Assembly (NCBI GenBank): GCA_011390645.1
Contig: JAABRY010000012.1
Coordinates: forward strand, 1-48,002
DNA: 48,002 bases
DNA from: Gemmatimonadota bacterium
GTDB taxonomy: Bacteria; Gemmatimonadota; Gemmatimonadetes; Gemmatimonadales; GWC2-71-9
Direction: 5' to 3'
Shown here one piece after another: positions 12,430-46,268 of this stretch. Made by a program: the position numbers and the translations under genes. The notes beneath the pieces are model-generated. The model did not search any database. It was not told the origin of the DNA and saw nothing but the letters and a program-made list of their open reading frames with translations. The first letter of the stretch is position 1. Each line of letters opens with the position of its first letter.

Positions 12430-15249
<2,820 letters not shown>

Positions 15250-31078: not shown

Positions 31079-31080
31079 CC

Positions 31081-31089
31081 TGCTAGATT
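31081..31089 (+). promoter_or_regulatory. Candidate extended -10 element of tRNA-Pro
   Basis: TGCTAGATT: a TGn extension plus the hexamer TAGATT at 31084-31089, ending 10 bases before the mature tRNA 5' end. No clear -35 is seen. The same hexamer occurs before phenylalanine hydroxylase. Confidence 0.4.
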
Positions 31090-31099
31090 GTGGCACCGA

Positions 31100-31173
31100 C
31101 GGGGCGTAGCGCAGTCCGGTAGCGCGTCCGCTTTGGGAGCGGAAGGTCCCGGGTTCGAATCCCGGCGCCCCGA
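31100..31173 (+). tRNA. tRNA-Pro (anticodon TGG)
   Basis: Complete cloverleaf. The acceptor arm is CGGGGCG paired with CGCCCCG (31100-31106 with 31166-31172), with discriminator A at 31173. The anticodon stem TCCGC/GCGGA encloses loop TTTGGGA, with anticodon TGG at 31134-31136. The T arm is CCGGG/CCCGG with loop TTCGAAT. The initial C1 is typical of bacterial tRNA-Pro. CCA is not encoded. A heptad-repeat region begins two bases after the 3' end. Confidence 0.97.
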
Positions 31174-31174
31174 T

Positions 31175-31263
31175 GACAGAGAACGGCGAACAGCGAACGG
31201 AGAGCGGAGGTGTCCACTCTCCGTTTGTCGTGTGGGCTGTGCTCAGTTCGCGGTTCGCTGTTA
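31175..31263. repeat. Inverted heptad-repeat region after tRNA-Pro (locus A)
   Basis: About five 7-base units run from 31175 (GACAGAG, AACGGCG, AACAGCG, AACGGAG, AGCGGAG). Opposite-sense units GTTCGCG and GTTCGCT lie at 31246-31259. Two hairpins are possible and share bases: AACGGAGAG/CTCTCCGTT (31196-31204 with 31217-31225) and AACAGCGAAC/GTTCGCTGTT (31189-31198 with 31253-31262). The left arm is nearly identical to the start of the repeat after hmgA. Confidence 0.7.
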
Positions 31264-31523
31264 CACCCCAACCCCATTCCGGGTCGGCATCTCGAAGATA
31301 TCGAATGCATTGTGTCGCTTGCATGCAACAGCGAGTGTTGCCACGCTACAGCATCGCACGGCGTGATGGTATGCATGAATCTCGAATATTCTGCCATAGG
31401 TTGGTCCACACGCGGATGCAGAGACGATTCGCGGCGTTCTGCGCCACGCTCGTCCATGGTGCGCATCTTGCACCCCCAGCATTGCACACACTCCCTCAAT
31501 CCGCCCCGCCAAAGGACTCCCGC
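31264..31523. other. Non-coding spacer upstream of the PEP-CTERM gene
   Basis: With the repeat region this makes a 350-base gene-free stretch. It is more AT-rich than its surroundings, contains a perfect 10-base palindrome TTGCATGCAA (31319-31328), and has several GCATGC/ATGCAT-like words. An open frame crosses it into the PEP-CTERM gene but shows no protein-like character. I see no RNA gene or clear promoter; regulatory sites for the exported protein are plausible only. Confidence 0.5.
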
Positions 31524-32087
31524 ATGCGCCGACTCGCAGCCCGCATCGCCACCACAGCTCTTGCTGTCACCCTGTTCACCCAGGTTGCAAGCGCCCAGAT
31601 GTTCTCCGGTACCACGGCGGGTGGCGCCACATGGAACCGGCCGGTGGGTGGTAATCCACCGATCGCCCCCTTGTCAGGCGTTGGGACCAATGTCGCGTAT
31701 GATCTGTTTTCCTTTCAGGTCACGCAGTCGGGCACTTACGACTTCCTGAGTACGGCAACAGCTCCGACCAACTGGGACAACTATCTCTTTCTGTATCAAA
31801 GTTCGTTCAATCCGAGCAGTCAATTCACCAACATCATCATCGGCAACGACGACTTTCTCTCCATTGGCTTGGCCGGGTTCAACGGTGTGGCGCTCAACGC
31901 CGGCACCGACTACTTCATCGTCACGTCGGGTTTCGGCAATGATGACGCCGGCACATACGAGCTTCGCATCACGGGCGACGGCACGGCATTCGAGACGCAG
32001 GATGTGGTGCCGGAGCCTGCCACGCTGACTCTGCTGGCGTCGGGTCTGGTGGGCCTCGCCGCCGCGCGCCGCCGCCGCGAGAGCTGA
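31524..32087 (+). CDS. Exported protein with PEP-CTERM sorting signal
   Basis: A 187-residue secreted protein: signal peptide (RRLAARIATTALAVTLFTQVASA), a beta-rich, Asn/Gly/Ser-rich domain with the look of a pre-peptidase C-terminal domain (YDLFSFQVTQSGTYDFLSTAT, NWDNYLFLYQSSFNP, IIIGNDDFL, YFIVTSGFGNDDAGTYELRITG), and a C-terminal VPEPATLTLLASGLVGLAAARRRR. That tail is the PEP motif, hydrophobic segment and Arg cluster recognised by exosortase in family members. The ATG at 31524 follows AAAGGA. No exosortase lies in this window. Base composition is less GC-rich than its neighbours. Confidence 0.9.
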   Translation: MRRLAARIATTALAVTLFTQVASAQMFSGTTAGGATWNRPVGGNPPIAPLSGVGTNVAYDLFSFQVTQSGTYDFLSTATAPTNWDNYLFLYQSSFNPSSQFTNIIIGNDDFLSIGLAGFNGVALNAGTDYFIVTSGFGNDDAGTYELRITGDGTAFETQDVVPEPATLTLLASGLVGLAAARRRRES

Positions 32088-32147
32088 ATCTGGCCGTGTA
32101 TCTGGCGACAAATGGACGCGATGAACTGCTAGCGTGAATGCACCCAA

Positions 32148-32187
32148 GACCACGGGAGACACCGCAGTTATGGTGTCTCCCGTGGTC
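32148..32187. terminator. Strong 16-bp hairpin after the PEP-CTERM gene
   Basis: Perfect inverted repeat GACCACGGGAGACACC / GGTGTCTCCCGTGGTC around an 8-base loop, 60 bases after the stop codon. No T-run follows on the plus strand (GTTCCTCG). It lies between convergent genes and could act for either strand or protect the 3' end. Confidence 0.65.
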
Positions 32188-32219
32188 GTTCCTCGCCTTG
32201 ACATGGCCTCGCGCCAACC

Positions 32220-32244
32220 GTCGCGCTTCCCAGTGAAGCGCGAC
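32220..32244. terminator. Second hairpin between convergent genes
   Basis: Perfect 9-bp stem GTCGCGCTT / AAGCGCGAC around loop CCCAGTG, 50 bases before the stop of the convergent minus-strand gene. No clear T-run; the terminator role is inferred from position. Confidence 0.4.
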
Positions 32245-32293
32245 GCGTCTGGTCCGCTGGTGTTGAAGCACCCCGATAAGTCGTATACCCGGC

Positions 32294-33052
32294 TCAGTTC
32301 CCCGCCCGCTGCCCGCGGTTCGCCGCCTGGTACGCCGCGATCCACGCCGGCAGCCCCTGATGATGCGGATCGAACACCTCGGCGGGAATTTCATCGTCGA
32401 CTCGCACCCACGTGTACTCCTCCACCATGCGCGGGGCCCCGTTCGTCACAAAGGTGATCTCGCGCTCCAGCAGCGCGGGTCCATGCTGCGAGAATTTGCC
32501 GATGCGGGTGTCGTTGTGTGCCCCCCCCGGACCGGATTGCATCACGCGCACCACCACCAGGCGCGCAGGGTCCACCCAGAACTGCGCCGAGGCGGTGTCG
32601 CCGGCCAAGGCGCCAACCACGACAACCGGGCGTCCCTCCCACGTTGCGGCATGTGTGCGCGAAAGGTCGAACCCCTGCGCCCGGAGCTTGGCAATCACCG
32701 CGTCGCTGTCACCGACATGGATGTCGTGCAACAGCAGCAGGAGCGAGTGCACGAGGGGTTGCGAGCCGCGTAGCGTGCCGTTCGCCACTTGGTGCAGCGT
32801 GTCGTCCCGGAAGATCATGGTGGAGACCATCGCCCCGTCGCGTTCGATGTCGATCCGCAGGCGCCCCGGTCGCACCATCGTCTCGTACCAGGTCTCGGGT
32901 GCCCGGGCAGTGCCGGGATAGGTCGTATGCTGGACGAAGACCAGCGACGTGAACCAACTGCCCCGATGTTCGGTGTTCATGCGGCGAAGGAGGGCCTCGC
33001 CGCTGTCCGGCGCGGCGGTGAGGATGGCGAGGGCAGCAAGCGCGAGCACCAT
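32294..33052 (-). CDS. LolA-like outer membrane lipoprotein-sorting family protein
   Basis: Exported protein of 252 residues with a short signal (MVLALAALAILTAAPDSGEALLRRM). The body has the repeated amphipathic strands of the LolA/LolB-type half barrel: WFTSLVFVQHTTYPG, ETWYETMVRPGRLRIDIERDG, STMIFRDDTLHQVANG, RPVVVVGALAGDTASAQFWVDPARLVVVRV, and ITFVTNGAPRMVEEYTWVRVDDEIPAEVFDP. This suggests binding of a lipid or acyl chain in the periplasm, but it need not be the housekeeping LolA. The minus-strand sequence before the ATG has CAGGAG. It is divergent from mscL across 169 bases in which I see no sure promoter. Confidence 0.7.
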   Translation of the reverse strand: MVLALAALAILTAAPDSGEALLRRMNTEHRGSWFTSLVFVQHTTYPGTARAPETWYETMVRPGRLRIDIERDGAMVSTMIFRDDTLHQVANGTLRGSQPLVHSLLLLLHDIHVGDSDAVIAKLRAQGFDLSRTHAATWEGRPVVVVGALAGDTASAQFWVDPARLVVVRVMQSGPGGAHNDTRIGKFSQHGPALLEREITFVTNGAPRMVEEYTWVRVDDEIPAEVFDPHHQGLPAWIAAYQAANRGQRAGN

Positions 33053-33221
33053 GCGGTCTCCTGAAGGTTGGTTGTGCGCTCCTACCTACGCTGCCTGGGC
33101 GCTCTGGGTTTCCTCTGGCAGAATGGGGGCCGCGTGACCACTTTTCTCCCTCACCTGTTTGCCAGTCCCTGGTCACACCGAGCGCACCGCATTGCAGCGA
33201 TGCGTCACTGGAGGCTCCTGC

Positions 33222-33653
33222 ATGAGCATGATGTCCGAGTTCAAGGAATTCGCCCTCAAGGGCAACGTGATGGATCTCGCCGTTGGCGTGATCATCGGGG
33301 CCGCCTTCGGCAAGATCGTCACGTCCATGGTGGACGACCTGATCATGCCCGTCGTGGGGTATGTGTTTGGAGGACTCGACTTTGCTGATTACTTCTGGCC
33401 GCTCGGAGACGTGCCACCAGAAACGGAGCCGACCTTGGCAGCGGTCCGCGAGGCCGGCGTCCCGGTCATTGCCTACGGCAACTTCCTCAGCGTCGCACTG
33501 AACTTTGCGATTCTGGCGTTCATCATCTTCCAGATGGTCAAGGTGATGAACCGCCTCAAGCGCAAGGAAGAGGTCGCACCGACGGTGCCGGCGGCACCGC
33601 CCGAGGATGTATTGCTCCTTCGCGAGATCCGCGATGCGGTCCGGAGAGCCTGA
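33222..33653 (+). CDS. mscL: Large-conductance mechanosensitive channel MscL
   Basis: Emergency osmotic release valve of the inner membrane. The 143-residue protein has the canonical [43 protein letters not shown] first half (pore helix TM1), a periplasmic loop (residues 60-90), TM2 ([22 protein letters not shown]) and a cytoplasmic helix after RLKRKEE. The ATG at 33222 follows GGAGG by seven bases. Confidence 0.96.
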
Positions 33654-33673
33654 GCGGGCATGACGTCGGAGCT

Positions 33674-33703
33674 CGGGGCGGATGCCGTGGTGGCATCCCC
33701 CCG
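33674..33703. terminator. Bidirectional terminator-like hairpin between mscL and the permease gene
   Basis: Stem CGGGG-GGATGCC / GGCATCC-CCCCG with a single C-C mismatch and loop GTGGT, in the 52-base gap between two convergent stop codons. There is no long T-run on either strand. Confidence 0.55.
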
Positions 33704-33705
33704 TG

Positions 33706-34785
33706 CTACGCCGCCACGTCCTCCCCGGTGTGGTCGCTCATCAGATGTCCGATCCAGCGCGATTCCTCATGACTGTCAAAGAGAAGCCGCGCGGCGATCG
33801 AGAACGGCACGGCCAGCAGCGCCCCGATCGGTCCGAGCAGCCAACCCCAGAATACCAGCGAGATCACCACAACGGCCGGCGACAGGTCGAGAGACTCGCC
33901 GACGTACCGCGGCTTGATCACATTGTCGACGATGAGGTTGATCACCGAGAATCCCGCCACCACCAGGAGCGCACGCCCGACACCGAACTGGAGCAGCGCA
34001 AGAAGCGCTGGCGGCGCCAACGCGATGACGAAGCCGATGTTGGGGAGGAAGCTGAGGAGGAACGACAGGACGCCCCAGAGAATCGCGAGGTCCACGCCGA
34101 GCGCGAACAGCAGGATGGTGTTGGCCACCGCCGCAATCAGACCGAAGATCGTGTTGATCACCACATAGCTCCGCATGCTGGTCACGAAGCCATCGAGGCC
34201 GCTGGTCGAAGTCTCCGAACTGCGGAACGCCGCGCGCAACTTCTGCGGATACCGCACCGCCTCGATCATCATGAACACCATGATCAGGAGCAGGATCGCC
34301 ATGTTGCCTGCCGTGCTGGTCAGGCCCCCGATGAAGCCGACGATGTACCCGACGATGGCCTCGGGCTGCAACGCCTCAGCCGATGACAGCTGCGAGGTGT
34401 CCACGTTGAACGGCAGACGCGCCAGCAGGTCGGTCACCGAGTCGCGCAGCGTGCCGATGCGTTCCTGATAGGCCGGCAACTCGGACTCGAGTTGCAGCAA
34501 CGATGAATAGATCAGCACCACGAGCAACGCCACCACGGTGACTCCGACCACGATCCCCATCAGGGATGCGACGATCGGGTGCCAGCCACGTTGCTGGAGC
34601 CAGCGTGAGGCTGGACTCCACGCGATCGTGATCAGCAGGGCGATGGCAATCGGCCCGATGACCGAACTGGCGGCGCGCAGGCCGGCGAGCACCAGCACGG
34701 CGGCGGCCATCGTCACCAGCAGGCGCGTCAGGGAACCTCGGGTCGTGTCGGTGATGGGGGCCGTCCTCGCTGAGGTGACCTGCAT
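33706..34785 (-). CDS. AI-2E family transporter (PerM/YdiK/TqsA-like permease)
   Basis: Inner membrane protein of 359 residues with about eight helices. Family landmarks: the N-terminal pair RLLVTMAAAVLVLAGLRAASSVIGPIAIALLITIAWSP, a periplasmic helical segment, and the conserved C-terminal half (WGVLSFLLSFLPNIGFVIALAPPALLALL, VINLIVDNVIKPRYVGESLDLSPAVVVISLVFWGWLLGPIGALLAVP). The start at 34785 follows GAGGTGG on the minus strand; 34827 is an alternative upstream ATG. Members export small molecules, and some are Na+/H+ antiporters; the substrate is unknown. Confidence 0.9.
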   Translation of the reverse strand: MQVTSARTAPITDTTRGSLTRLLVTMAAAVLVLAGLRAASSVIGPIAIALLITIAWSPASRWLQQRGWHPIVASLMGIVVGVTVVALLVVLIYSSLLQLESELPAYQERIGTLRDSVTDLLARLPFNVDTSQLSSAEALQPEAIVGYIVGFIGGLTSTAGNMAILLLIMVFMMIEAVRYPQKLRAAFRSSETSTSGLDGFVTSMRSYVVINTIFGLIAAVANTILLFALGVDLAILWGVLSFLLSFLPNIGFVIALAPPALLALLQFGVGRALLVVAGFSVINLIVDNVIKPRYVGESLDLSPAVVVISLVFWGWLLGPIGALLAVPFSIAARLLFDSHEESRWIGHLMSDHTGEDVAA

Positions 34786-34876
34786 GGGCACCACCTCGAT
34801 CTTCACCCTGCTCCCCAGCCCCCGCAAGGGGCGACCGCCAAACCCGCATGCCTCGCGTTCCGGCGGGCGACTGAGG

Positions 34877-34882
34877 TAGTTT
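34877..34882 (+). promoter_or_regulatory. Candidate -10 element of tRNA-Arg
   Basis: TAGTTT ends nine bases before the mature tRNA 5' end, nearly the same distance as TAGATT before tRNA-Pro. No clear -35 is seen. Confidence 0.35.
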
Positions 34883-34891
34883 CTGCGCTGC

Positions 34892-34965
34892 GCCCTCGTA
34901 GCTCAGCTGGATAGAGCAGTCGCCTTCTAAGCGACAGGTCGGAGGTTCGAGTCCTCCCGGGGGCA
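34892..34965 (+). tRNA. tRNA-Arg (anticodon TCT)
   Basis: Complete cloverleaf. Acceptor GCCCTCG pairs with CGGGGGC (34892-34898 with 34958-34964, one T-G pair), discriminator A at 34965. D arm contains AGCTCAGCTGGATAGAGC. Anticodon stem GTCGC/GCGAC encloses loop CTTCTAA with anticodon TCT at 34926-34928. T arm GGAGG/CCTCC with loop TTCGAGT. CCA is not encoded. Confidence 0.97.
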
Positions 34966-34985
34966 CTTCCTCAACTCCGAGTACC

Positions 34986-35369
34986 ATGACCGACGAACTG
35001 TTTGCCTCGCCCAAGTCCCGCACCACGGTGCTCCTGCTCGCCATCTTTCTGGGCGTCTTCGGAGCACACCGCTTCCACGTGGGCCGTATTCGGAGCGGCA
35101 TCCTGATGCCCCTCACCCTCGGCGGCATGGGGCTCTGGTACCTCTACGATATCATCACGATCTCTGCAGGCTCCTTCCGCGACGCTGACGGTGCGCTGGT
35201 CGCCGACTGGGAAGCGGAGACCGAACGGCTTGCCCCACCGGGCACTGCCGGTGCCATCCTCGATGAGCTCGACCAGTTGCGTGCCGAGGTGACCGACCTG
35301 CACGAGCGCCTGGAGTTCACCGAGCGCCTGCTCGCCGATCCCGACCGTCGTGGCGGCCCGGGCGCATGA
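34986..35369 (+). CDS. TM2 domain-containing membrane protein
   Basis: Small protein of 127 residues. The first 65 residues form a TM2 domain: KSRTTVLLLAIFLGVFGAHRFHVGR, then a short turn, then LMPLTLGGMGLWYLYDIITI. The rest is a soluble coiled-coil-like tail (AILDELDQLRAEVTDLHERLEFTERLL). Biochemical function of bacterial TM2 proteins is not known. It starts 20 bases after tRNA-Arg and overlaps the MATE gene by four bases. Confidence 0.88.
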   Translation: MTDELFASPKSRTTVLLLAIFLGVFGAHRFHVGRIRSGILMPLTLGGMGLWYLYDIITISAGSFRDADGALVADWEAETERLAPPGTAGAILDELDQLRAEVTDLHERLEFTERLLADPDRRGGPGA

Positions 35370-36727
35370 GCCCACCGCTGGTCGAATTGCGGGAGCATCC
35401 CCTCCGGGAGCTCCTGCGTCTGGCGATCCCTATCATCGGGGTCAACGTCGGCATGATGCTCATGGGGGCCGTCGACACCATCATGGTCGGTCGCGTCTCC
35501 CCGGAGGCGCTAGCTGCAGTGGCCCTGGGCAACGTCTACTTTTTCGCGCTCTCGATTTTCGGCGTCGGGATCCTGCTGGGTCTTGATCCGATCCTGGCAC
35601 AGGCGCTGGGTGCGCGTGACCACGAGGGGTTTGCGCTCGGGGTGCAGCGCGGCCTCGTCCTCGCCGCCGTCCTCTCCGTGCCGATCTCGGCCGCGTTCTT
35701 CGTCGCAGAGCCACTGCTCGCCCTCGCGCGGCAACCCGCGGAGGTGCTGCCCCTGGTCGGGACCTACTGCACGATTCTTGTACCGGGGATCCTGCCGTTC
35801 TTCGCGTTCAACGTCGGACGCCAGAGCCTGCAGGCGATGCAACGGGTGGCACCGGTGGTCTGGACGATCGTCATCGCGAACCTTGCCAACATCGCGCTGA
35901 ATTACGTGCTCATCTTTGGTGGGCTTGGGATCCCTGCGATGGGCGTCGCGGGCTCGGCGTGGGCCACCACGCTCTCCCGGTGGGTGATGGCGCTCGTCCT
36001 GCTCTGGCTCGGGCGCGGGGTGTTGCGGGACGCGCTCGTGCCATGGCGCCCGGCCACCCTGCGCCTCGCCCCCATTCTGGCTGTCTTCCGCCTCGGCTTG
36101 CCAGTTGGGGTGCAGCTCGAGCTGGAGATGGCCGCCTTCTCCACGGTCGCCCTGCTGATGGGCACCTTCGGTACGATGCACGTGGCCGGGCATCAGGTGG
36201 CCCTCAACCTCGCCTCGTTGACCTTCATGGTGCCGATGGGGGTCGGAATGGGCGCTGCGGTCCTGGTGGGGCGTGCGCTCGGGCGTGGGGATCGGGTCGC
36301 CCTCATCGCCTCTGCACGTGCGGCGGTGGCCGCTGGTGTCGGTTTCATGGCGTGTACTGCGCTGCTCTTTCTCACGCTCCCCACCTTCTTCGCGCGGCTC
36401 TACACCTCGGCGCCCGATGTGGTCGCGTTTGCCGCGACGCTGCTGCCAATCGCCGGCGTCTTCCAGGTGTTCGATGGCATTCAGGTGGTGTGCGCGGGGA
36501 TCTTGCGTGGACTCGGCGATACGCGGGCCCCCATGCTCATCAACCTGGTGGGCTTTGGCGGCATCGGTGTCACCACCAGCATCGTACTCGCCTTCAGGAC
36601 GCCGCTGGGACCACTCGGGCTGTGGTGGGGACTGGTGATCGGACTCGCGGCGGTTGCGATGATCCTGCTGTGGCGCGTTCGGAGCAGGGTGCAACGGCCG
36701 CTGACGCGCGTGCTGACCGACGACTGA
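35366..36727 (+). CDS. MATE family multidrug/Na+ or H+ exporter
   Basis: Twelve-helix inner membrane exporter of 453 residues in two homologous halves. Characteristic parts: LRLAIPIIGVNVGMMLMGAVDTIMVGRVSPEALAAVALGN, the GLDPILAQALGARD loop, PFFAFNVGRQSLQAMQR, then in the second half FRLGLPVGVQLELEMAAFSTVALLMG, GMGAAVLVGRALGRGD and GILRGLGDTRAPMLINLVGF. It matches the NorM/DinF superfamily; the substrate is unknown. Its ATG overlaps the TM2 gene stop. It is convergent with ypdA, with four bases between stops. Confidence 0.93.
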   Translation: MSPPLVELREHPLRELLRLAIPIIGVNVGMMLMGAVDTIMVGRVSPEALAAVALGNVYFFALSIFGVGILLGLDPILAQALGARDHEGFALGVQRGLVLAAVLSVPISAAFFVAEPLLALARQPAEVLPLVGTYCTILVPGILPFFAFNVGRQSLQAMQRVAPVVWTIVIANLANIALNYVLIFGGLGIPAMGVAGSAWATTLSRWVMALVLLWLGRGVLRDALVPWRPATLRLAPILAVFRLGLPVGVQLELEMAAFSTVALLMGTFGTMHVAGHQVALNLASLTFMVPMGVGMGAAVLVGRALGRGDRVALIASARAAVAAGVGFMACTALLFLTLPTFFARLYTSAPDVVAFAATLLPIAGVFQVFDGIQVVCAGILRGLGDTRAPMLINLVGFGGIGVTTSIVLAFRTPLGPLGLWWGLVIGLAAVAMILLWRVRSRVQRPLTRVLTDD

Positions 36728-36731
36728 CCGG

Positions 36732-37766
36732 CTATTCACCCACCGGGCGGGGTGAGGCCGCGTAGCGCTCCGCCGCCGCCTCCCGGGATGCGGCATCACC
36801 GAAGATCTTCTCGCCGTCGAAGCGTCCGTTCTCGATGAAGACCTCACCGGTGTGGCGACCCGCGGCGGCGCTCCCGGCAAGGAAGACACCCGGCACATTC
36901 GTCTCCATCGTGGCGGGATCGAGTGCCGGTCGACCGCTCTCCGCATCGAGCGTGATACCGATCTGTTCCATCAGCGCGAAGTCCGGGTGGTACCCCGTCA
37001 GGGCGAAGACCCGATCCGCCACGATGTCTGCCACGTGCCCATTCGCGTGCCGCACCGTCACCGCGTGTACGGTGATTGCCGTCACGGTCGTTCCGAAATG
37101 GGCGGTGATCTCTCCTGCGGCCACGCGATTCTCGAAGTCCGGTCGCAGCCAGTACTTCACGCTTGGCTTGAGCGCATCGCCACGGTGAATCAGCGTGACG
37201 CGAGCGCCCGCACGCCAGCACTGTAGTGCGGTCTCGATCGCAGAATTCTTTCCGCCGATGACGACGACGTCCAATCCGGCGTTGCGATGCGGTTCGTCAA
37301 ACCAGTGCGACACGTGCGGGAGGTCTTCACCGGGCACCTCGAGAGCATTCGGATGTTCGAAGTACCCCGTGGCGATGACAAGGCGGTCGGTGTGATGTAC
37401 GTGCTCGCCGCGTTGCGTGCGAAGCGTGCACGCGAGCGTTCCGTTCGCGGTCCGGTGTGCAGCAAGGAGCCGGACCCCTGGATGCACTGCCAGTTGTTCG
37501 GCCAGTGCCACGCGCCGGTAGTACGCCAGTGCCTCTTCTCGGGTCGGCTTCGGTTCGACGCACGCGAAGGGGTGCCCGCCAATCTCCAGGCGCTCCGCCG
37601 TGGTGAAGAAGCGCATGCCAATCGGATAGCGCACGATCGACTGTGCGATTGCGCCGGTGTCGATCACCAGCGCGTCGATGCCGCGTCGGCGAGCCGAGAT
37701 GGCGCAGGCGAGCCCAATGGGGCCGGCGCCAACGATGAGGGCGGGTGACTTGGGGGCGAAGGCCAT
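36732..37766 (-). CDS. ypdA: YpdA-type bacillithiol disulfide reductase
   Basis: FAD/NAD(P)H-dependent oxidoreductase of 344 residues. The FAD motif is ALIVGAGPIGLACAISARRRGIDALVID, followed by a segment close to YpdA of Firmicutes (SIVRYPIGMRFFTTAERLEIGGHPF, KPTREEALAYYRRV), the ATGYFEHPNALEVPGEDLPHVSHWFDE stretch, the second nucleotide motif VVVIGGKNSAIETALQCWRAG, and FALTGYHPDF. Family members reduce bacillithiol disulfide, which implies this organism uses bacillithiol; that is an inference from the family. It follows merC at 36 bases and is probably cotranscribed. Confidence 0.87.
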   Translation of the reverse strand: MAFAPKSPALIVGAGPIGLACAISARRRGIDALVIDTGAIAQSIVRYPIGMRFFTTAERLEIGGHPFACVEPKPTREEALAYYRRVALAEQLAVHPGVRLLAAHRTANGTLACTLRTQRGEHVHHTDRLVIATGYFEHPNALEVPGEDLPHVSHWFDEPHRNAGLDVVVIGGKNSAIETALQCWRAGARVTLIHRGDALKPSVKYWLRPDFENRVAAGEITAHFGTTVTAITVHAVTVRHANGHVADIVADRVFALTGYHPDFALMEQIGITLDAESGRPALDPATMETNVPGVFLAGSAAAGRHTGEVFIENGRFDGEKIFGDAASREAAAERYAASPRPVGE

Positions 37767-37802
37767 GCGGGAATATCACACGGCCAGGGGCGACGTGGCA
37801 GG

Positions 37803-38207
37803 TTACTCGGGAGTCGGGTGGCCGCACGACGTGCAGGAGCAGCCAATCTCCGCGGCCGAGTGCCGCAGCCGCGCGTTCCACATCAGCCCAGCAGCAGTCA
37901 GGAGTGCCGCCAGCGCGATCCCGAGCTCACCACCAACCGCCGGGAGCGCGCCGAAGAGCTGCCCACCCCAGAGGCTCAGGCCGAGTCCCGCCACGAGGGC
38001 AGGGCCCGCGTGGCGATGGACAAGCGTCCCCGACCACGTCGCCCAACCCACCAGCACCACACTCGCTGCGAGCATCACCACCTCGGCGGTGTGTCCCATG
38101 GCGAACGCGGGCATCACGGCAACCAGCAGCGGGGTTGCCACGCAATGGATGGCGCACAACAAGGGCGCGGCGGCGGCGAGTGAGTGTCGAATCGCTCGTG
38201 CGGGCAT
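37803..38207 (-). CDS. MerC domain membrane protein
   Basis: Small membrane protein of 134 residues with about four helices and the MerC opening LLCAIHCVATPLLVAVMP, whose paired Cys could bind metal. A second Cys cluster sits at the C-terminus (IGCSCTSCGHPTPE). MerC proteins import Hg(II) in mer operons, but there is no merA or merR here; many chromosomal MerC-domain proteins have unknown roles. It lies between the PhoD-like gene (six bases upstream) and ypdA, a thiol-redox gene. Confidence 0.82.
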   Translation of the reverse strand: MPARAIRHSLAAAAPLLCAIHCVATPLLVAVMPAFAMGHTAEVVMLAASVVLVGWATWSGTLVHRHAGPALVAGLGLSLWGGQLFGALPAVGGELGIALAALLTAAGLMWNARLRHSAAEIGCSCTSCGHPTPE

Positions 38208-38213
38208 TCGGGG

Positions 38214-39566: not shown

Positions 39567-39652
39567 AATGGTAATCGCATGTCAATTGTGACGGCAGGGG
39601 AGCCCCGAAGCCTGGAAATCTGCTACCCGGTCCATTCCGGCCCGGTAGGGAC

Positions 39653-39667
39653 TAAACTGTAGCCGTG
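39653..39667 (+). promoter_or_regulatory. Candidate -10 element directly before a GTG start
   Basis: TAAACT at 39653-39658 lies six bases before the GTG at 39665, the spacing expected if transcription starts at the start codon. No ribosome binding site is visible. No good -35. Confidence 0.35.
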
Positions 39668-40615
39668 CTGCATGTCACGCCATTCGCCGAAGACGCCCCC
39701 GAGGAGTCGATTTCGAGGTGGCCCGCGCTCCTGACCAGCGCCGGGATCCACCTTGCAGTGGTCCTGTTCGTTCTCCTGCGGACGACCGAGCCTGTGCCGA
39801 ATCCCGCTGCTCCAGTGGAGTTTCCGGAGGACCAGCAGCAAATCGCGCTCGAGCCCATGCCGCAATTCGATCCAGAGCAGCAGGCCCCAGCCCCTCAGCC
39901 AACACCCGCCGCCCCCGAGGAGCCTGTCGCGCTTGGTCCGGATTCCGACCGCCCCGACGAGCGCATCCCACGCGAGCAGGGGCAGGAGGAGCCACCGCCG
40001 CCCGACGCGCCCATCGCGACGACCCCTCCTCGGACCACCGAGGAGCAGCCGGCAGAGGAACCGGCTCCGGGGCAGGGCACTGGGCAGACCGCAGAGCGGA
40101 TCCCCCGTGCGGAGGAAACTGGGCAGACTGGGCGCCTGCAGACACCTACCTCGCCGTGGGGACCGTCGCGGACGGTGCTGAACCCGGGTTCGGCCGGCGG
40201 TGCAGCATCGGCACCTGCCACTGCCAGCGCAGGTGCCATGGGGCGAGCCGGCGTCAGCAAGGTGGATGGCCGCGCCTGGCAACAGTCGTTCCCGGAGGCC
40301 GCAGGTCGCTGTGTCGAAATGCCGGATTTTGGTACCAACCCTGATGGCTCTCCGGTGCTCGCGTCCGTCCTGGGCATCGTGAAGGACGACAAGGGTTTTC
40401 CGCTGCCGAACGCCCACCTGCAGTTGGTCGGGCACACCTACTCGACCTTTACCGATCGGCAGGGGCGCTATCGCCTGGAGTTCAATCCGAAGTTGCTCGA
40501 GCGCTGCCGGGTGCAGTACATCCGCGTCTCCGCGGATGGTTACTCTGGAGCGAACCTCGTGTTGGCGATTGGACGACAAGTGCTGAGCGACGACGTGATC
40601 CTCCGGCGCCGATGA
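39665..40615 (+). CDS. Membrane-anchored Pro/Glu-rich periplasmic protein with a carboxypeptidase-regulatory-like domain
   Basis: A 316-residue protein with one N-terminal helix (WPALLTSAGIHLAVVLFVLLRT), laid out as in TonB. A Pro/Glu/Gln-rich extended stretch (45-150) follows, then a Gly/Ala/Ser linker, then a C-terminal domain that reads as a carboxypeptidase regulatory-like beta sandwich (LGIVKDDKGFPLPNAHLQLVGHTYSTFTDRQGRYRLEF...RCRVQYIRVSADGYSG). No TonB C-terminal box is seen, so energy transduction is not supported. GTG is the only start that keeps the helix near the N-terminus. It is followed 12 bases later by the acetoacetyl-CoA synthetase gene. Confidence 0.75.
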   Translation: MLHVTPFAEDAPEESISRWPALLTSAGIHLAVVLFVLLRTTEPVPNPAAPVEFPEDQQQIALEPMPQFDPEQQAPAPQPTPAAPEEPVALGPDSDRPDERIPREQGQEEPPPPDAPIATTPPRTTEEQPAEEPAPGQGTGQTAERIPRAEETGQTGRLQTPTSPWGPSRTVLNPGSAGGAASAPATASAGAMGRAGVSKVDGRAWQQSFPEAAGRCVEMPDFGTNPDGSPVLASVLGIVKDDKGFPLPNAHLQLVGHTYSTFTDRQGRYRLEFNPKLLERCRVQYIRVSADGYSGANLVLAIGRQVLSDDVILRRR

Positions 40616-40627
40616 GGGCCACGGGCG

Positions 40628-42634
40628 ATGCGTGATGCGCCAGTGTGGGCTCCCTCCACCGCTCGCCGGGAGGCTTCGCTCATGGGGCGGTTCCTCGAGG
40701 CACGTCGAGGAACCGGTGCGCCGCTCCCCCCCCCAGATGATCCGGCGGCGTTCGCTGCACTCCACGCGTGGTCACTCGCGGAGCCGGCGGACTTCTGGGG
40801 TGCGGTCTGGCGCGATGGCGGCGTCCTCGGGGATCTGGCGGCCGGCGACCCGATATGGACCGGTTCATCCACCATTGCTCCACCGCAGAGCGAGGCGGCA
40901 GGACGGTGGTTTCCCACCGCCCGATTGAACTTCGCCGAGAACCTGCTGCGGCATCGGGGGGATGAGCTCGCCGTCATTGCGTGGGACGAGCGAGGCCCCC
41001 TCTCCTCACTCTCACGCGATGCCCTGCACGACGAGGTTGCCCGCGTTGCTGCTGGCCTCGTGCGGTGCGGCGTGGGTCCCGGCGATCGCGTCGCCGGATG
41101 GATGCCGAATATCCCGGAAACCCTTGTGGCGATGCTGGCCACGGCAGCCCTCGGTGCGGTCTGGACGTCCTGCTCGCCGGACTTCGGCGTGGATGGCATC
41201 GTCGATCGCTTTGGCCAGACCGAGCCGGTGGTGCTTTTCTTCTGCGATGCCTACGGCTACGGCGGCAAGGTCCATGACTGCACCGCTCGCGCAGCCGAGT
41301 TGTTGCCACGGCTGCCGTCGGTTCGTGAGGCGATCATCGTCCCGTTTCGTGGGGGGGGGGAGGTCGAGGCGCCCACGGGCGTGACACGATGGGATGACTT
41401 CCGACGCGCCGGAGCGGACCCGCCGCCACTCGCGTTCCACCGGGTGCCGTTTGATCACCCGCTCTATGTGCTCTACTCCTCGGGCACCACCGGGCTGCCG
41501 AAGGGGTTGGTGCATGGCGTGGGTGGGACGCTGCTCCAGCACCTGAAGGAGCACCGGCTGCATGTGGACCTCCGTCCGCACGAGCGTCTCTTCTACTTCA
41601 CGACCTGCGGGTGGATGATGTGGAATTGGCTCGTGAGTGGATTGGCGGCCGGAGCCACGCTGGTGCTCTACGATGGCGCACCGATGCCTGCGCACGAACC
41701 GGACATCCTCTGGCGAATGGCGAGTGGTGAGCGCGTCAACGTCTTCGGCACCTCCGCCAAGTACCTGGCCCTCGCGGAGAAGGAGGGCATGCAGCCGGCG
41801 CGACAGCACGACCTTGGCGCCGTGCGGGCCGTGCTCTCCACCGGGTCGCCCTTGGCGGCGGCCTCGTTTGACTGGGTCGCCAAAGCGGTCGGACCGCAGG
41901 TCCAGACCGCCAGCATCTCGGGTGGGACGGACATCGTCTCCTGTTTCGTCCTCGGCAATCCGCTCTCCCCGGTCTTCCGAGGGGAGATTCAAGGTCCCGG
42001 ACTCGGTATGGCGGTGCAAATCTTCGACGATGATGGGGCCCGGGTTGCTGATGGCGAAGCGGGTGAACTCGTCTGTACGCAGCCGTTTCCCGCCATGCCC
42101 GTCGCGTTCTGGAACGATTCCGATGGTGAGCGCTATCGTGCTGCGTACTTCGAGCCGTGGCCTTCGGTCTGGCGCCACGGTGATTGGGCCTACCGTACCT
42201 CTCACGGCGGCTTCGTGATCGAGGGCCGCAGCGACGCCACGCTCAACCCAGGTGGGGTCCGCATTGGCACGGCCGAGATCTACCGGCAGGTCGAGGCATT
42301 CGACGAGGTCCTCGAGAGTCTGGTCATCGGGCAACGCATTCCCGGAGCCGCAGACCGGGACGTGCGCGTCGTGCTTTTCCTGCGGCTCCGGGAGGAGGTC
42401 GCACTGACTGAGGAATTGCAGGGGCGGATCCGGGCGAAGATCCGCAGCGGGGCATCACCGCACCACATCCCGCGCATCATCCTCGCAGTGCCGGACATCC
42501 CGCGCACCCGAAGTGGGAAGCTGAGCGAGATCGCCGTCCGGGACGCCGTCGAGGGGCGCCGCGCGCGCAATGTCGGCGCCTTGGCCAACCCCGAGGCGCT
42601 CGCCTGGTTCACGGGGCGTCCCGAATTGTCTTGA
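40628..42634 (+). CDS. Acetoacetyl-CoA synthetase (acetoacetate-CoA ligase)
   Basis: Acyl-adenylate-forming enzyme of 668 residues that activates acetoacetate with ATP and CoA. Motifs: WFPTARLNFAENLL, typical of this subfamily; the P-loop YSSGTTGLPKGLVHG; FYFTTCGWMMWNW; SISGGTDIVSCF; HGDWAYRT; and the C-terminal catalytic Lys in RTRSGKLSEIAVRDAV. It immediately precedes genes for tyrosine breakdown, whose end product is acetoacetate, so a salvage role fits. A G10 run at 41351-41360 and a C9 run at 40726-40734 are in frame. Confidence 0.93.
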   Translation: MRDAPVWAPSTARREASLMGRFLEARRGTGAPLPPPDDPAAFAALHAWSLAEPADFWGAVWRDGGVLGDLAAGDPIWTGSSTIAPPQSEAAGRWFPTARLNFAENLLRHRGDELAVIAWDERGPLSSLSRDALHDEVARVAAGLVRCGVGPGDRVAGWMPNIPETLVAMLATAALGAVWTSCSPDFGVDGIVDRFGQTEPVVLFFCDAYGYGGKVHDCTARAAELLPRLPSVREAIIVPFRGGGEVEAPTGVTRWDDFRRAGADPPPLAFHRVPFDHPLYVLYSSGTTGLPKGLVHGVGGTLLQHLKEHRLHVDLRPHERLFYFTTCGWMMWNWLVSGLAAGATLVLYDGAPMPAHEPDILWRMASGERVNVFGTSAKYLALAEKEGMQPARQHDLGAVRAVLSTGSPLAAASFDWVAKAVGPQVQTASISGGTDIVSCFVLGNPLSPVFRGEIQGPGLGMAVQIFDDDGARVADGEAGELVCTQPFPAMPVAFWNDSDGERYRAAYFEPWPSVWRHGDWAYRTSHGGFVIEGRSDATLNPGGVRIGTAEIYRQVEAFDEVLESLVIGQRIPGAADRDVRVVLFLRLREEVALTEELQGRIRAKIRSGASPHHIPRIILAVPDIPRTRSGKLSEIAVRDAVEGRRARNVGALANPEALAWFTGRPELS

Positions 42635-42657
42635 CCGGCCGACCGCCGCCCCGCGAT

Positions 42658-42663
42658 TAGATT
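42658..42663 (+). promoter_or_regulatory. Candidate -10 element for phenylalanine hydroxylase
   Basis: TAGATT, identical to the hexamer before tRNA-Pro. TTGACC at 42631-42636 overlaps the previous stop codon, but the 21-base spacing is long for a -35. This suggests the aromatic-degradation genes can be transcribed apart from the synthetase gene. Confidence 0.3.
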
Positions 42664-42694
42664 CAAGGGTTCGACCCCTTCTCGAGAGGTCTGC

Positions 42695-43621
42695 ATGACG
42701 ACGGCTGCCGATACCCCCGGACTCACCACGACCCGCGCTCCGTTCATCGAGGCAGCGCAGGCCGCCGGACGGCTCTACATCGACCAACCCTACGAGCTCT
42801 ATTCGGACGCAAACCATGACGTCTGGCACCGACTGTACGGTCGGATGGGCGAACGGTGGGCGCGCTACGCCAATGAGAAGTTTCTCGAGGGAATCCGGAC
42901 GCTCCAGCTCGATCCAACGAAGGTGCCGCGGCTGGAGGACGTCAACCGGTTCATGGCACCACTGACGGGGTTTCGGGCGAAGGCGGTCAGCGGGTACGTG
43001 CCAGCCTACCGCTTCTTCGATTGCCTGCGGCAACGAGAGTTCCCGACGACCATCACCATCCGTGATGGGGAAGTCCTCGATTACCTCCCCGAACCCGACA
43101 TCTTCCACGACATCGCCGGCCACGTCCCCATGCACACGGACAAGGCCTTCGCCGATACGCTCGTGGCATTCGGCGAGTGCGCCCGCGCCGCCGCGGAGCG
43201 CGTGAGCGGCATCGCCGATGAGCACGAGCGCCTCCGCGTGCTCACCAGCGTGGTGAAGGCGATGGCGCGCTTCTTCTGGTTCACCGTCGAGTTCGGCCTG
43301 ATGAAGGGCGCAACGCCCGGTGAGCTGAAGGTCTACGGCTCCGGCCTCCTCTCGTCCTATGGCGAGATCCAGCATGCCATCGAGTCGCCGGAGGTACAGC
43401 GCTGGCCCTTCCAGCTTGAATGGGTCGTGAATCAGGGCTTCGAGATCGACCACTATCAACCGCTGCTCTTCGTCGTTGACTCGTTCGATCACCTCTTCGC
43501 CGAGGTCATTCGCCTCGTGGAATGGGTGCGCGAGGGACGACTGGACCATGTGGCGCCTGGCGAGCCCGGGATCAGCGAGGCGGATCTCGTCTCGTTCCTC
43601 GAGGCCGCCGGTCACGCCTGA
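42695..43621 (+). CDS. phhA: Phenylalanine 4-monooxygenase (aromatic amino acid hydroxylase)
   Basis: Pterin- and iron-dependent hydroxylase that converts phenylalanine to tyrosine. The 308 residues contain the iron site: His138 and His143 in PDIFHDIAGHVPMHTD, and the Glu in FWFTVEFGL (199). The segment GSGLLSSYGEIQHA matches the family. From the second His to the Glu is 56 residues, against 40 in human PAH (290 to 330), so a surface insertion of about 16 residues (around SGIADEHERLRVLTS) is present. AGAGG precedes the ATG. hppD follows 13 bases later. Confidence 0.93.
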   Translation: MTTAADTPGLTTTRAPFIEAAQAAGRLYIDQPYELYSDANHDVWHRLYGRMGERWARYANEKFLEGIRTLQLDPTKVPRLEDVNRFMAPLTGFRAKAVSGYVPAYRFFDCLRQREFPTTITIRDGEVLDYLPEPDIFHDIAGHVPMHTDKAFADTLVAFGECARAAAERVSGIADEHERLRVLTSVVKAMARFFWFTVEFGLMKGATPGELKVYGSGLLSSYGEIQHAIESPEVQRWPFQLEWVVNQGFEIDHYQPLLFVVDSFDHLFAEVIRLVEWVREGRLDHVAPGEPGISEADLVSFLEAAGHA

Positions 43622-43634
43622 CAGGAGTGTTGCC

Positions 43635-44762
43635 ATGACGACCACACTGCCCGCGCCGACGTCGGCCCCCCCCCACGACGCCTTCCCCATCAACGGGACC
43701 GACTACGTCGAGTTCTGGGTCGGCAACGCCAAGCAAGCCGCCGTGTTCTATCGTGCCGCCTTCGGCTTCCGGCTGGTGGGCTACCGCGGTCCCGAGACCG
43801 GCGTGCGCGACCGCGTCTCCTACCTCCTCGAGCAGGACAAGCTGCGGTTCGTCCTGACCTCGGCGCTGGGTCCGGAGGGGGCGATCGCCGACCATGTCCG
43901 CTTGCACGGTGATGGGGTGAAGGACATGGCCTTCTGGGTGGACGACGCCAGAGCGGCCTGGGAAGTCGCGGTGGCGCGCGGCGCGACCAGTGCGCGAGAC
44001 CCGGAGGTGCTGCACGACGACCACGGCGAGATCGTGATCGCCGGGATCTGCACCTACGGCGACACCATCCACTCGATCGTCGAGCGGCGCAACTATCGCG
44101 GACTCTTCCTGCCGGGCTTCGAAGCGGTGGACTCGCCGTTCGCCCCCGCACCCATCGGCCTGAAGTACGTCGATCACTGCGTCGGCAATGTCGAACTCGG
44201 CAAGATGAACACCTGGGTCAAGTTCTACGAGGACGTCCTCGGCTTCACGAACATCCTGACCTTTGACGACAAGACCATCAGCACCGAGTACTCCGCGCTG
44301 ATGTCCAAGGTGATGAGCAACGGGAACGGCCGCATCAAGTTCCCGATCAACGAACCCGCCGAGGGACGCAAGAAGTCGCAGATCGACGAGTATCTGGATT
44401 TCTACCGCGGCCCGGGGGTGCAACACGTCGCGATCGCGACTGACGACATCATCGCGACGGTACGCGAGATGCAGGCGCGGGGCGTCGAGTTCCTGACCGT
44501 GCCACGCACCTATTACGAAACGGTGCTCGACCGCGTCGGCACGATTGATGAGGAGCTCAACGCGCTCGCGGAGCTCGGCATTCTCGTCGACCGCGATGAC
44601 GAGGGGTACCTGCTGCAGATCTTCACCAAGCCGGTGCAGGATCGTCCCACGCTCTTCTACGAGATCATCCAGCGCAAGGGCGCGAAGAGCTTCGGGGCAG
44701 GGAACTTCAAGGCGCTCTTCGAAGCGATCGAGCGCGAGCAGGCTCGGCGGGGGAATCTGTAG
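43635..44762 (+). CDS. hppD: 4-hydroxyphenylpyruvate dioxygenase
   Basis: Fe(II) dioxygenase turning 4-hydroxyphenylpyruvate into homogentisate. The 375 residues form two VOC domains. The iron ligands can be placed at His181 (LKYVDHCVGN), His264 (VQHVAIATDDI) and Glu343 (FYEIIQR), with the C-terminal RKGAKSFGAGNFKALFEAIE that closes the site. The ATG at 43635 follows AGGAG; an open frame further upstream overlaps phhA and lacks homology. A C9 run at 43666-43674 lies just inside the gene. The heptad-repeat spacer begins two bases after its stop. Confidence 0.97.
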   Translation: MTTTLPAPTSAPPHDAFPINGTDYVEFWVGNAKQAAVFYRAAFGFRLVGYRGPETGVRDRVSYLLEQDKLRFVLTSALGPEGAIADHVRLHGDGVKDMAFWVDDARAAWEVAVARGATSARDPEVLHDDHGEIVIAGICTYGDTIHSIVERRNYRGLFLPGFEAVDSPFAPAPIGLKYVDHCVGNVELGKMNTWVKFYEDVLGFTNILTFDDKTISTEYSALMSKVMSNGNGRIKFPINEPAEGRKKSQIDEYLDFYRGPGVQHVAIATDDIIATVREMQARGVEFLTVPRTYYETVLDRVGTIDEELNALAELGILVDRDDEGYLLQIFTKPVQDRPTLFYEIIQRKGAKSFGAGNFKALFEAIEREQARRGNL

Positions 44763-44763
44763 G

Positions 44764-44918
44764 AGGTCATAGGTCGTAAGTCGTAGGTCGTACGCTGGTG
44801 GCAACAACGCGTGTCATGATCCTGCAGCCTTCGCCGGCGACCTACGACTTACGACCTACGACTTACGACCTGCAACCTACGACCTACGACCTACGACCTA
44901 CGACTTACGACCTACGAC
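44764..44918. repeat. Heptad-repeat inverted array between hppD and hmgA (locus B)
   Basis: Left arm (44764-44794): four units AGGTCAT, AGGTCGT, AAGTCGT, AGGTCGT. After a 42-base spacer, the right arm (44837-44918) has about 12 units in the opposite sense, mainly ACGACCT with interspersed ACGACTT and one GCAACCT. The last three left-arm units (44771-44791) are perfectly complementary over 21 bases to 44851-44871 and also to 44893-44913, so two alternative long hairpins can form. The array ends about 10 bases before the hmgA start, next to its AGGG ribosome binding site. Confidence 0.95.
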
Positions 44919-44928
44919 AGGGCACCAC

Positions 44929-46122
44929 ATGCCAATCTACCATCTCATGGGCGACGTCCCGCGCAAGCGACACATCGTCTTTCGACGCCCCGACGGGGGG
45001 CTGTACGCCGAAGAGCTGATGGGCCATGAGGGCTTCACCGGCACGGCGTCACTCCTCTACCACATTCATCCACCGACCACGGTCAAGGCCGCGCGCCGCG
45101 TGCGCACGATCACGTGGGAGGCCGATGATGACACCTCGCTGCGGCATCGCCACTTCCGCACGGCACGCGCGGCCACGGGCGGCTCCGCGATCCTCGACCG
45201 GATCCCGCTCCTCTTCAATGCGGACATCGGGATGCTCTACGTCGAGCCGGATGCGGCAGAAGAGCCCCTCTACCGCAACTCGCAGGCGGATGAGGTGGTC
45301 TACGTGGCGGAGGGGGGGGGAGAGCTGCACTCGGTCTTCGGGGTGCTGCCGGTCAAGCCCGGCGACTACGTCGTCATTCATCGCAACATTACCCACCAGT
45401 GGCGTTTCGATCGCGCGCAGGGGACCCCGAAGCTGCTGGTCATGGAGAGCCGCGGCCACATCCGCTTCCCGCGCCGCTACCTGAACGACATGGGGCAGTT
45501 GCTCGAGGGCGCGCCATACTCGGAGCGGGACATCCGGCGACCCACCGCGCTTGAACCGCACGACGAGCGCGGCGAGTTCCCGATTCTCGTCAAGCAGTAT
45601 GACGCGCTCAACGAGCTCGTGCTTGATCACCACCCGTTCGATGTCGTCGGGTGGGACGGCTACTTCTATCCGTGGGCGTTCAACATCCACGACTTCGAGC
45701 CGATCGTCGGTCGGATTCATCAGCCGCCGCCGGTGCACCAGACCTTCCAGGGCGATGGCTTCGTCATCTGCTCGTTCTGCCCGCGGCCGTACGACTTCGA
45801 TCCCCAGGCGATCCCGGCACCGTACAACCACAGCAACGTGGATTCCGACGAGGTGCTCTTCTATGCCTCAAGCGAGTTCATGTCGCGCAAGGGGATCGAG
45901 TACGGGAGCATCACGCACCATCCTGACGGGCTCCCTCATGGCCCGCATCCCGGTCGCGCCGAGGCGAGCATCGGGGCGACGCACACCGACGAACTCGCGG
46001 TGATGATGGACTCGTTCCGACCGCTGCGCGTGGCGAAGGCTGCGGAGGCATTCGAGGATCTCGAGTATCACCGTTCGTGGGTGGACCAACAGCACGAGCA
46101 ATTCAACCCACCCACGTCCTGA
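44929..46122 (+). CDS. hmgA: Homogentisate 1,2-dioxygenase
   Basis: Opens the aromatic ring of homogentisate to give maleylacetoacetate. The 397 residues are of the short bacterial type. Substrate and iron region: NADIGMLYVEP, SQADEVVYVAEGGGELHSVFG, KPGDYVVIHRNITHQW, VVGWDGYFYPWAFNIHDFEP, and the ligands in PYNHSNVDSDEVLFYAS and THHPDGLPHGPHPG. The ATG follows AGGG. A second heptad-repeat spacer starts at its stop codon. The next pathway enzymes (maleylacetoacetate isomerase, fumarylacetoacetase) are not in this window. Confidence 0.95.
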   Translation: MPIYHLMGDVPRKRHIVFRRPDGGLYAEELMGHEGFTGTASLLYHIHPPTTVKAARRVRTITWEADDDTSLRHRHFRTARAATGGSAILDRIPLLFNADIGMLYVEPDAAEEPLYRNSQADEVVYVAEGGGELHSVFGVLPVKPGDYVVIHRNITHQWRFDRAQGTPKLLVMESRGHIRFPRRYLNDMGQLLEGAPYSERDIRRPTALEPHDERGEFPILVKQYDALNELVLDHHPFDVVGWDGYFYPWAFNIHDFEPIVGRIHQPPPVHQTFQGDGFVICSFCPRPYDFDPQAIPAPYNHSNVDSDEVLFYASSEFMSRKGIEYGSITHHPDGLPHGPHPGRAEASIGATHTDELAVMMDSFRPLRVAKAAEAFEDLEYHRSWVDQQHEQFNPPTS

Positions 46123-46210
46123 CAGCGAACGGCGAGCGGGGATGTGAGGTGAAACGTCAAAGGTGAAACGGCAGGTCAGTGCAGCCCCTTTCACCTTTCA
46201 CCTTTCACCG
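46121..46210. repeat. Inverted heptad-repeat region after hmgA (locus C)
   Basis: Units starting at the stop codon: GACAGCG, AACGGCG, AGCGGGG (46121-46141), close to the first units after tRNA-Pro. A second set AGGTGAA, ACGTCAA, AGGTGAA (46147-46167) follows. The right arm is three perfect tandem CTTTCAC units (46188-46208). The second set and the right arm pair at about 21 of 24 positions across a 20-base spacer, giving a hairpin. Confidence 0.85.
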
Positions 46211-46268
46211 GATGATGCGCCCACGGTACGTGACTGCCTGTTTGTCGTTCTCTCCCCTAGGAGCCCCA

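Follow-up and report, generated by a model that had tools for sequence, protein, structure and literature searches.

Cyanobacteria contain the STRR repeats, tandem heptanucleotides with several units per genome. This work concerns inverted arrays of tandem 7-nt units, or heptads, in the gene spacers of a Gemmatimonadota bacterium (NCBI assembly GCA_011390645.1), which a preliminary description had reported from three spacers of a stretch of 48,002 nucleotides (contig JAABRY010000012.1, positions 1 to 48,002; hereafter the window). The closest published case is that of the heptamer repeats of Xanthomonas and Nostoc, GGGAATC and GGGGA(C/T)T (Rehm et al. 2015, PMC4692102); here and for the other papers cited, statements refer to the portions of the text that were accessible. 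Those heptamers are mostly intergenic, lie on average 28 nt behind the upstream open reading frame (ORF) with few between divergent ORFs, form 70–75 inverted pairs per genome with one repeat per strand, and vary between related species; the same paper also notes three tandem heptanucleotides from Calothrix. The TAACTGA repeats of Beggiatoaceae, Cyanobacteria, and Bacteroidetes (MacGregor 2015, PMC4679880) are direct repeats of one fixed unit, with one inverted case among 170 sets, and are found mostly just upstream of start codons. BrickBuilt of Porphyromonas gingivalis (Klein et al. 2015, PMC4596501) is a miniature inverted-repeat transposable element (MITE) with an internal minisatellite, always intergenic and present in about 19 copies. 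A bacterial preference for 7-nt repeats has been noted with no function found (PMC4679880, PMC4692102), and a proposal relayed in both papers is that the 7-nt step matches the DNA segment contacting polymerase. A term search of the accessible text of a survey of DNA structures (PMC4060949) returned no mention of heptamers.

The elements described here share with the Xanthomonas and Nostoc heptamers a tandem 7-nt unit, a mostly intergenic setting (121 of 138 arrays), proximity to the upstream 3' end (median 8.5 nt), and rarity in divergent spacers (5 of 36). Intergenic heptamers near ORF 3' ends, inverted pairs, and a paucity of divergent cases are already known from that work (PMC4692102). Those heptamers have one quadruplex-forming G-run unit per organism, whereas many units are found here, with a GGG run on the G strand of only 20 of 138 arrays, and most elements are inverted. 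The accessible part of Rehm et al. did not describe genomes with many units, a predominance of inversion, orthologous junctions that are empty or refilled, or a dispersed core family. Like the TAACTGA repeats, the elements are abundant intergenic 7-nt tandem repeats within one genome, some of which overlap stop codons, but they are inverted, follow stop codons, and have many units. With BrickBuilt they have in common a tandem repeat combined with inverted ends, whereas in BrickBuilt a central 23-nt unit lies between short inverted ends and here the 7-nt units themselves form the arms. A literature search, made mostly outside subscription journals, returned no description of heptads in Gemmatimonadota and none of units being exchanged at orthologous junctions. 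The elements have the look of rapidly changing DNA that in part copies itself and belongs to a type that has received little study, and we put at about even odds (a probability of roughly 0.5) that they are largely selfish or neutral hairpins that grow in 7-nt steps, copy their arms, occasionally disperse in a MITE-like manner, and are tolerated at gene ends.

Heptad arrays across the genome

A sample of 392,473 bases (13%) of the window's genome was searched, comprising the window and 19 further stretches. Stretches carry L numbers (here L031–L049; the 265-base L050 was dropped) and genomes carry G numbers, G000 being the window's genome and the others those of relatives. Of the 19 added stretches, 17 came from contigs holding a GGTGAAA 15-mer; L048, L049, and the window were not picked in this way. 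Genes were called by a codon-score script, with 92% of the sample called coding. Exact period-7 runs of at least 10 numbered 99 in the sample and 1 in one dinucleotide shuffle of it. The corresponding real and shuffled counts were 1 and 3 at period 5, 0 and 0 at period 8, and, at the multiples of seven, 21 and 0 (period 14) and 10 and 2 (period 21). Periods 3, 6, 12, 15, and 24, multiples of three as in coding DNA, gave 7 to 12 exact runs each. A mismatch-tolerant detector found 138 period-7 arrays, 121 of them mostly intergenic, against 7 in a Markov-shuffled copy, and returned 22, 18, and 28 arrays at periods 6, 9, and 12, of which 0, 1, and 0 were intergenic. Chance and codon drift were rejected as sources of the period by these shuffle and other-period counts. 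Genome-wide, YTTTCACCTTTCACC had 87 matches and its reversed control 0, and GGTCGTAGGTCGTA had 212 matches with 0 for the reversed control in the window's genome. The preliminary description had proposed that inverted arrays of 7-base units form a family dispersed over gene ends and had named the lack of any excess over shuffled spacers as the result that would speak against it; the period-7 excess in the sampled bases is large, and both the sample and the whole-genome pattern counts support such a family. Array-bearing spacers numbered 7 in the 76.7 kb of the window, L048, and L049 and 59 in the 392 kb of the whole sample; because array density differs between the two, extrapolation gives a range of ∼270–440 array-bearing spacers per genome. 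In G035 and G067, contigs of more than 1 Mb carry heptad elements.

Arrays are unevenly distributed with respect to genes. Among spacers of at least 30 nt, those with arrays made up 12 of the 19 between convergent genes, 42 of the 119 between genes in tandem, and 5 of the 36 between divergent genes (Fisher p = 0.0004 for convergent versus divergent and 0.014 for tandem versus divergent). Across these 42 tandem spacers, the median distance from the stop codon to the first array is 8.5 nt, and in 24 that array begins within 10 nt or overlaps the gene; in 6, the end of the last array lies within 10 nt of the following start codon. Among 72 gene 3' ends with an array nearby, 23 have the stop codon covered by it; among 44 gene 5' ends with an array nearby, 1 has its start codon covered. 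Even among the 17 mostly genic arrays, 8 touch or overlap the 3' end of the gene. At one junction (D; L039, 12897–12931), the array extends into the 3' end of a gene resembling those for arginine-pathway carbamoyltransferases and provides the codons for the final residues, and the C-terminal ends of this protein differ in relatives; the repeats can form not only spacers but also the C-terminal tail of an enzyme. The heptad spacer at L040 4308–4536 contains, by eye, a separate hairpin with TTTT.

No single unit accounts for the arrays. The commonest in the window's genome were AAAGGTG (31 arrays), AGGTCGT (18), AGGGGTG (16), AAACGTG (14), ATGTTGG (11), and AACGGTG (11), followed by rarer ones, and a strict table held 27 unit classes, a few of which are coding noise. 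A strict 7-nt register kept whatever the sequence would suit arrays that bind a protein, for example of the cold-shock/OB-fold type, and one such protein able to bind heptamer repeats is mentioned by MacGregor (PMC4679880). The units vary widely within and between species, however, and this reading is highly improbable because a sequence-specific binder would hardly tolerate such variety.

The three loci in the window

In the window, arrays with a detector score of at least 9 are confined to three spacers (four arrays, at 31181, 44764, 44838, and 46187). An array of score 7 at 31246 is the right arm of locus A, and three further arrays of score 7–8 lie outside the loci (10715, 30111, and 41711). 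The heptad arrays in inverted arms described at the outset for these spacers were confirmed in all three, as was their start at the upstream gene end, which lies at +2 nt after the tRNA at locus A and at stop codons at loci B and C. All features given here are on the forward (+) strand. At locus A, downstream of tRNA-Pro (31100–31173), a left G-rich arm with units close to ACAGCGA, ACGGCGA, and ACGGAGA (31176–31209) is followed by a right C-rich arm that is its inverted copy (31239–31262). At locus B, the left arm of GGTCGTA-type units (44760–44792) starts inside the TAG stop codon of a gene similar to 4-hydroxyphenylpyruvate dioxygenase (HPPD; 43635–44762), and the right arm consists of 11.6 units of CGACCTA (44838–44918). 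A gene similar to homogentisate 1,2-dioxygenase (HGD; 44929–46122) separates B from locus C, where a GACAGCGAACGGCGA run from the TGA stop codon leads into a GGTGAAACGTCAAAGGTGAAACGG arm (46120–46171), with 3.3 units of CCTTTCA as right arm (46187–46209). Loci A and C have in common the run GACAG[A/C]GAACGGCGA. Tandem Repeats Finder reported period 7 at 31176–31198, 44773–44792, 44838–44918 (11.6 copies), and 46187–46209. The inverted arms are 86% complementary at A (31182–31202 with 31242–31262), 96% at B (44766–44792 with 44892–44918), and 88% at C (46148–46171 with 46186–46209). Inversion on both sides of a spacer holds for the three loci named. In the family at large, arms are often imperfect, and many sampled elements have a single arm type.

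All three loci had also been said to be able to fold. RNA folds were better than those of shuffled sequences at A (z = −5.0) and B (z = −5.6, for 44760–44902 folded alone), whereas the fold at C was no better (z = −0.5; 56 of 200 shuffles folded at least equally well). The strong folds at A and B, the preference of arrays for gene ends and convergent spacers, and the presence of a stop codon on the G strand of 99 of 138 arrays, where letter shuffles expect 66 (the arrays not being independent), are what would be expected if 3' hairpins acted at the RNA level by stabilizing, processing, or ending transcripts or by insulating neighbors, for example through stop codons in all frames. This is nonetheless unlikely, given the ordinary fold at C and the lack of a hairpin at the orthologous junctions of most species. 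The terminator role suggested earlier found no backing at the three loci. A scan of 44600–46400 and 31000–31520 gave 0 sites resembling a terminator, where chance would give 0.7 and 0.3, although this is weak evidence because only loops of 3–8 nt are detected. No T-run was seen 3' of the right arms of A, B, or C on inspection of the sequence, and an Rfam 15 scan of 30000–48002 gave only two tRNAs above the gathering score.

Arms, loops, and a dispersed core family

The elements are laid out as a G-rich left (L) arm, a loop, and an inverted C-rich right (R) arm. In the window's genome, 43 pairs had LR order and 2 had RL order. Under a slightly different rule, ten members of the genus gave 61 G-first (LR) pairs (42 in G000, 7 in G063, 6 in G035, 4 in G067, and 1 each in G061 and G064) and 2 C-first (RL) pairs (1 each in G000 and G055), with three of the ten genomes giving no pair of either kind. 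The binomial p of 4e-16 serves as a description of this skew, because the elements are related. Same-sense neighbors (12 LL and 18 RR) represent composite arms. The G-first order seems to be a property of the element itself, because it also holds in all 4 divergent spacers that have both arms. For the same reason, a polarity imposed by genes, in which purine-rich stop codons would place the G-rich arm after the stop, was rejected as the whole cause.

The two arms of an element tend to match. An exact 7-mer is shared with the reverse complement of the partner in 27 of 42 G-first pairs, compared with 11.5 ± 2.3 when partners were shuffled (maximum 19 among 500 shuffles); in G035, 4 of 6 pairs matched and 1.1 were expected. 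Identical units were found in 46 of 102 adjacent pairs and in 40 of 167 pairs more than two units apart, a greater likeness of neighbors of the kind that slippage predicts. Loops, by contrast with arms, mostly lack relatives, with 10 of the 35 loops of at least 18 nt having a relative in the sample by BLASTN and 25 having none. Taken with the published idea of slippage-prone heptads relayed in PMC4679880 and PMC4692102, the unrelated loops and the likeness of neighboring units would fit arrays grown in place from chance seeds, with no copying between loci. Growth that is purely local is nevertheless quite unlikely, as a species has the same units at loci that are unlinked and other species have other units, one core is found at many loci, and junctions compact in relatives show insertion-like differences of ∼160–230 bp (see below).

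The core family came from four of the 25 loops without BLASTN relatives, which align with each other. A covariance model built from them found at least 13 copies (the four founders included) of a core of ∼55 nt in the window's genome, a lower bound because the 150 best candidates per genome were scored. All 13 are flanked by GGTGAAA/CGTGAAA-type arms, and the surrounding gene calls are tandem in 7 and convergent in 6. Two weak matches in the nine relatives (in G067 and G063) were not counted, heptad arms being absent. One arm in L216 changes from GGTGAAC to GGTGAAA units. From their sequences, some elements appear to have been copied to new places, because the 13 copies have one core between GGTGAAA-type arms. 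A conserved RNA structure in the core was rejected, as none of its pairs had both sides changed among the 13 copies, a further point against action at the RNA level; yet in the first 4 core sequences both sides had changed in 2 of 11 pairs, in another structure.

A second repeat family is nested in the heptad family, with 8 of the 35 loops containing a dispersed GTCATCCCGAGCG...CGCTCGGGATGAC palindrome (L033 18493–18617, L044 9753–9903, L047 12107–12266, and five others). In L044, two elements 1.1 kb apart have an identical 22-nt loop (11829–11850 and 12937–12958) and different outer arrays, and this pair is likely to reflect a recent copy. The 8 loops with the palindrome and the 2 of this pair make up the 10 loops that had a relative.

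The 13-copy core family bounded by heptad arms, the identical loops 1.1 kb apart, and compact junctions that are filled in a single species could all be read as signs of proper non-autonomous transposable elements (MITEs), in which the heptad arms would be terminal inverted repeats and a transposase would be encoded elsewhere in the genome. A dispersed core bounded by inverted repeats was found for that one subfamily only, and arm length and unit vary, unlike usual terminal repeats. No target duplication was seen by eye. The Y1 transposase family (PF01797) was matched in 17 of 24 genomes, including once in G000, but had 0 matches in G035 and G002, both of which bear heptads, and was present too in genomes whose stretch gave no array; a Y1/RAYT transposase is therefore unsupported as a necessary agent. 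Elements of this conventional kind are possible, if doubtful.

Turnover between species and origin of the elements

The genus, of which ten genomes could be searched (G062 and G065 with less than 10 kb sampled each), offers a natural experiment, with array densities from none to ∼35 per 100 kb and the same operon junctions empty or differently filled. Period-7 arrays per 100 kb numbered 35 in G000, 23 in G063, 13 in G067, 10 in G035, 9 in G061, 7 in G064, and 1.3 in G055, and G066 had 0 in 30 kb. Arrays found and those in one shuffled copy were 138 and 7 (G000), 20 and 2 (G063), 13 and 3 (G067), 26 and 8 (G035), 5 and 2 (G061), 4 and 2 (G064), 3 and 0 (G062), 1 and 0 (G065), 6 and 7 (G055), and 0 and 1 (G066); because noise differs by genome, density by itself makes a weak case for G061, G064, and G065. 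In the otherwise heptad-free G055, one strong array of CGACCAA units (score 38) was seen at 3517–3570 of L150 (G055:C4), perhaps a founder or a relic.

Comparison of 46 orthologous gene pairs with two relatives gave 5 comparisons with heptads in the window's genome and 41 without. The heptad-bearing spacers measured, in the window's genome and the relative, 166 and 2 bp and 166 and −1 bp (both junction B), 229 and −1 bp (junction E), 126 and 110 bp (junction D), and 229 and 59 bp, whereas median spacers in the heptad-free comparisons were alike (−4 and −4; 3.5 and 7). The reverse case was also found, with 0 bp in the window's genome and 115 bp with heptads in G035. Junction B (HPPD–HGD) was readable in 9 genomes and has a hairpin in the window's genome (GGTCGTA) and in G061 (GATGGAT); in the other 7 the genes are 0–2 nt apart or their stop and start codons overlap (no match in G065). 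At junction D, arrays were found in 5 of 10 genomes, namely the window's, G063 (AGTCGCG), G065 (ACTCACG/ACCAACG on the right arm), G035 (AGCCATG), and G067 (ATGACAG), and no array was detected in G055, G061, G062, G064, or G066. At junction E, arrays were found in 4 of 8 genomes, the window's (GGTGAAC), G063 (GGATGAT), G067 (ATGACAG/ATGACTG), and G062 (GGAGACC), with none in G055, G061, or G064 and no match in G065 or G066. After HGD (locus C), arrays were found only in the window's genome among 8 genomes read, and the downstream gene often differs. The same unit occurs at junctions D and E in G067, and the same unit at B and D in the window's genome. Two further anchor proteins lacked a clear ortholog and yielded no junction for comparison. 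As a separate observation, junction E in G035 (L181, ∼250 nt upstream of a UbiX-like gene) is filled by another tandem repeat of longer period (CGCTCAGGGTGACAAGGG...).

These junctions record the gain and turnover of elements between species, some filled junctions being compact in relatives and vice versa. That the elements are not conserved in related species argues against their being essential. Among the roles offered in the preliminary description, a short repeat-generating mobile element fits best, in view of the filled and compact junctions and the 13-copy core, patterns from which we infer mobilization. Because densities and junction states vary while polarity is fixed and a core family is dispersed, the origin, rate, and cost of heptad repeats are directly testable in this genus.

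If the elements are largely selfish or neutral hairpins, strand slippage in fold-back DNA would make arrays grow and shrink by 7 nt, and a nascent strand that switches template between the arms would keep them complementary. Whole arm-core-arm units would occasionally be copied elsewhere in a MITE-like fashion by some further agent. Purifying selection would then clear copies at other sites and spare chiefly those just downstream of genes, to which an array may even contribute the stop codon. The outcome would be a repeat that is largely selfish or neutral, with a set of units that varies by species. Loss of SbcD as a permissive cause was unsupported, a match at E ≤ 0.001 being present in 10 of 10 genus members (1 at the model cut-off).

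Several observations weigh against this account. Slippage explains neither the step of 7 nor the G-rich-first order. The arms of 15 of the 42 pairs have no 7-mer in common, and 26 of 73 sampled elements have a single arm type (14 R and 12 L, with 2 elements unclassified). That 25 of 35 loops are unrelated is unexpected under simple copy-paste of whole elements. At junction D, the window's genome, G063, and G065 have units that resemble one another (unlike those in G035 and G067), so that a shared origin with drift is possible there. No target-site duplication was seen by eye at junctions B, D, or E, with relatives at 76–87% protein identity, and no mobilizing enzyme was identified, PF01797 being the sole transposase family searched.

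Heptads were also found beyond the genus. YTTTCACCTTTCACC was present in 5 of 61 genomes of the family, and a GGTGAAA hairpin pattern, which itself imposed the polarity, was found at 11 loci in named genomes, two gammaproteobacterial, seven Bacteroidetes-type, one from Litorilinea, and one from a Gemmatimonadetes record (palsa_1233). Heptads of other types are also present at some of the 11 loci, for example a GGGGACT type in L059. In a survey of 40 stretches from 38 genomes of the family (17 of 40 shorter than 10 kb, 5 of 40 picked for holding a match, and L092 and L093 read as masked with a G+C content of 0.00), inverted heptads with other units were found in other genera (L088, L105, L108, L123, and L124). 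The G-rich arm comes first in four of these five, the first arm of L108 not being G-rich. It is conceivable, though very unlikely, that a widespread and as yet unnamed mechanism advances by 7 nt of its own accord, perhaps through a polymerase or reverse transcriptase devoted to the task, and produces these inverted hairpins, G-rich arm first, downstream of genes across many bacterial phyla, the unit "dialect" varying from species to species. One stretch of the survey, L091 (G006:C24, 30001–50000), contained seven period-8 arrays in 20 kb and 2 period-7 arrays, possibly an octamer counterpart.

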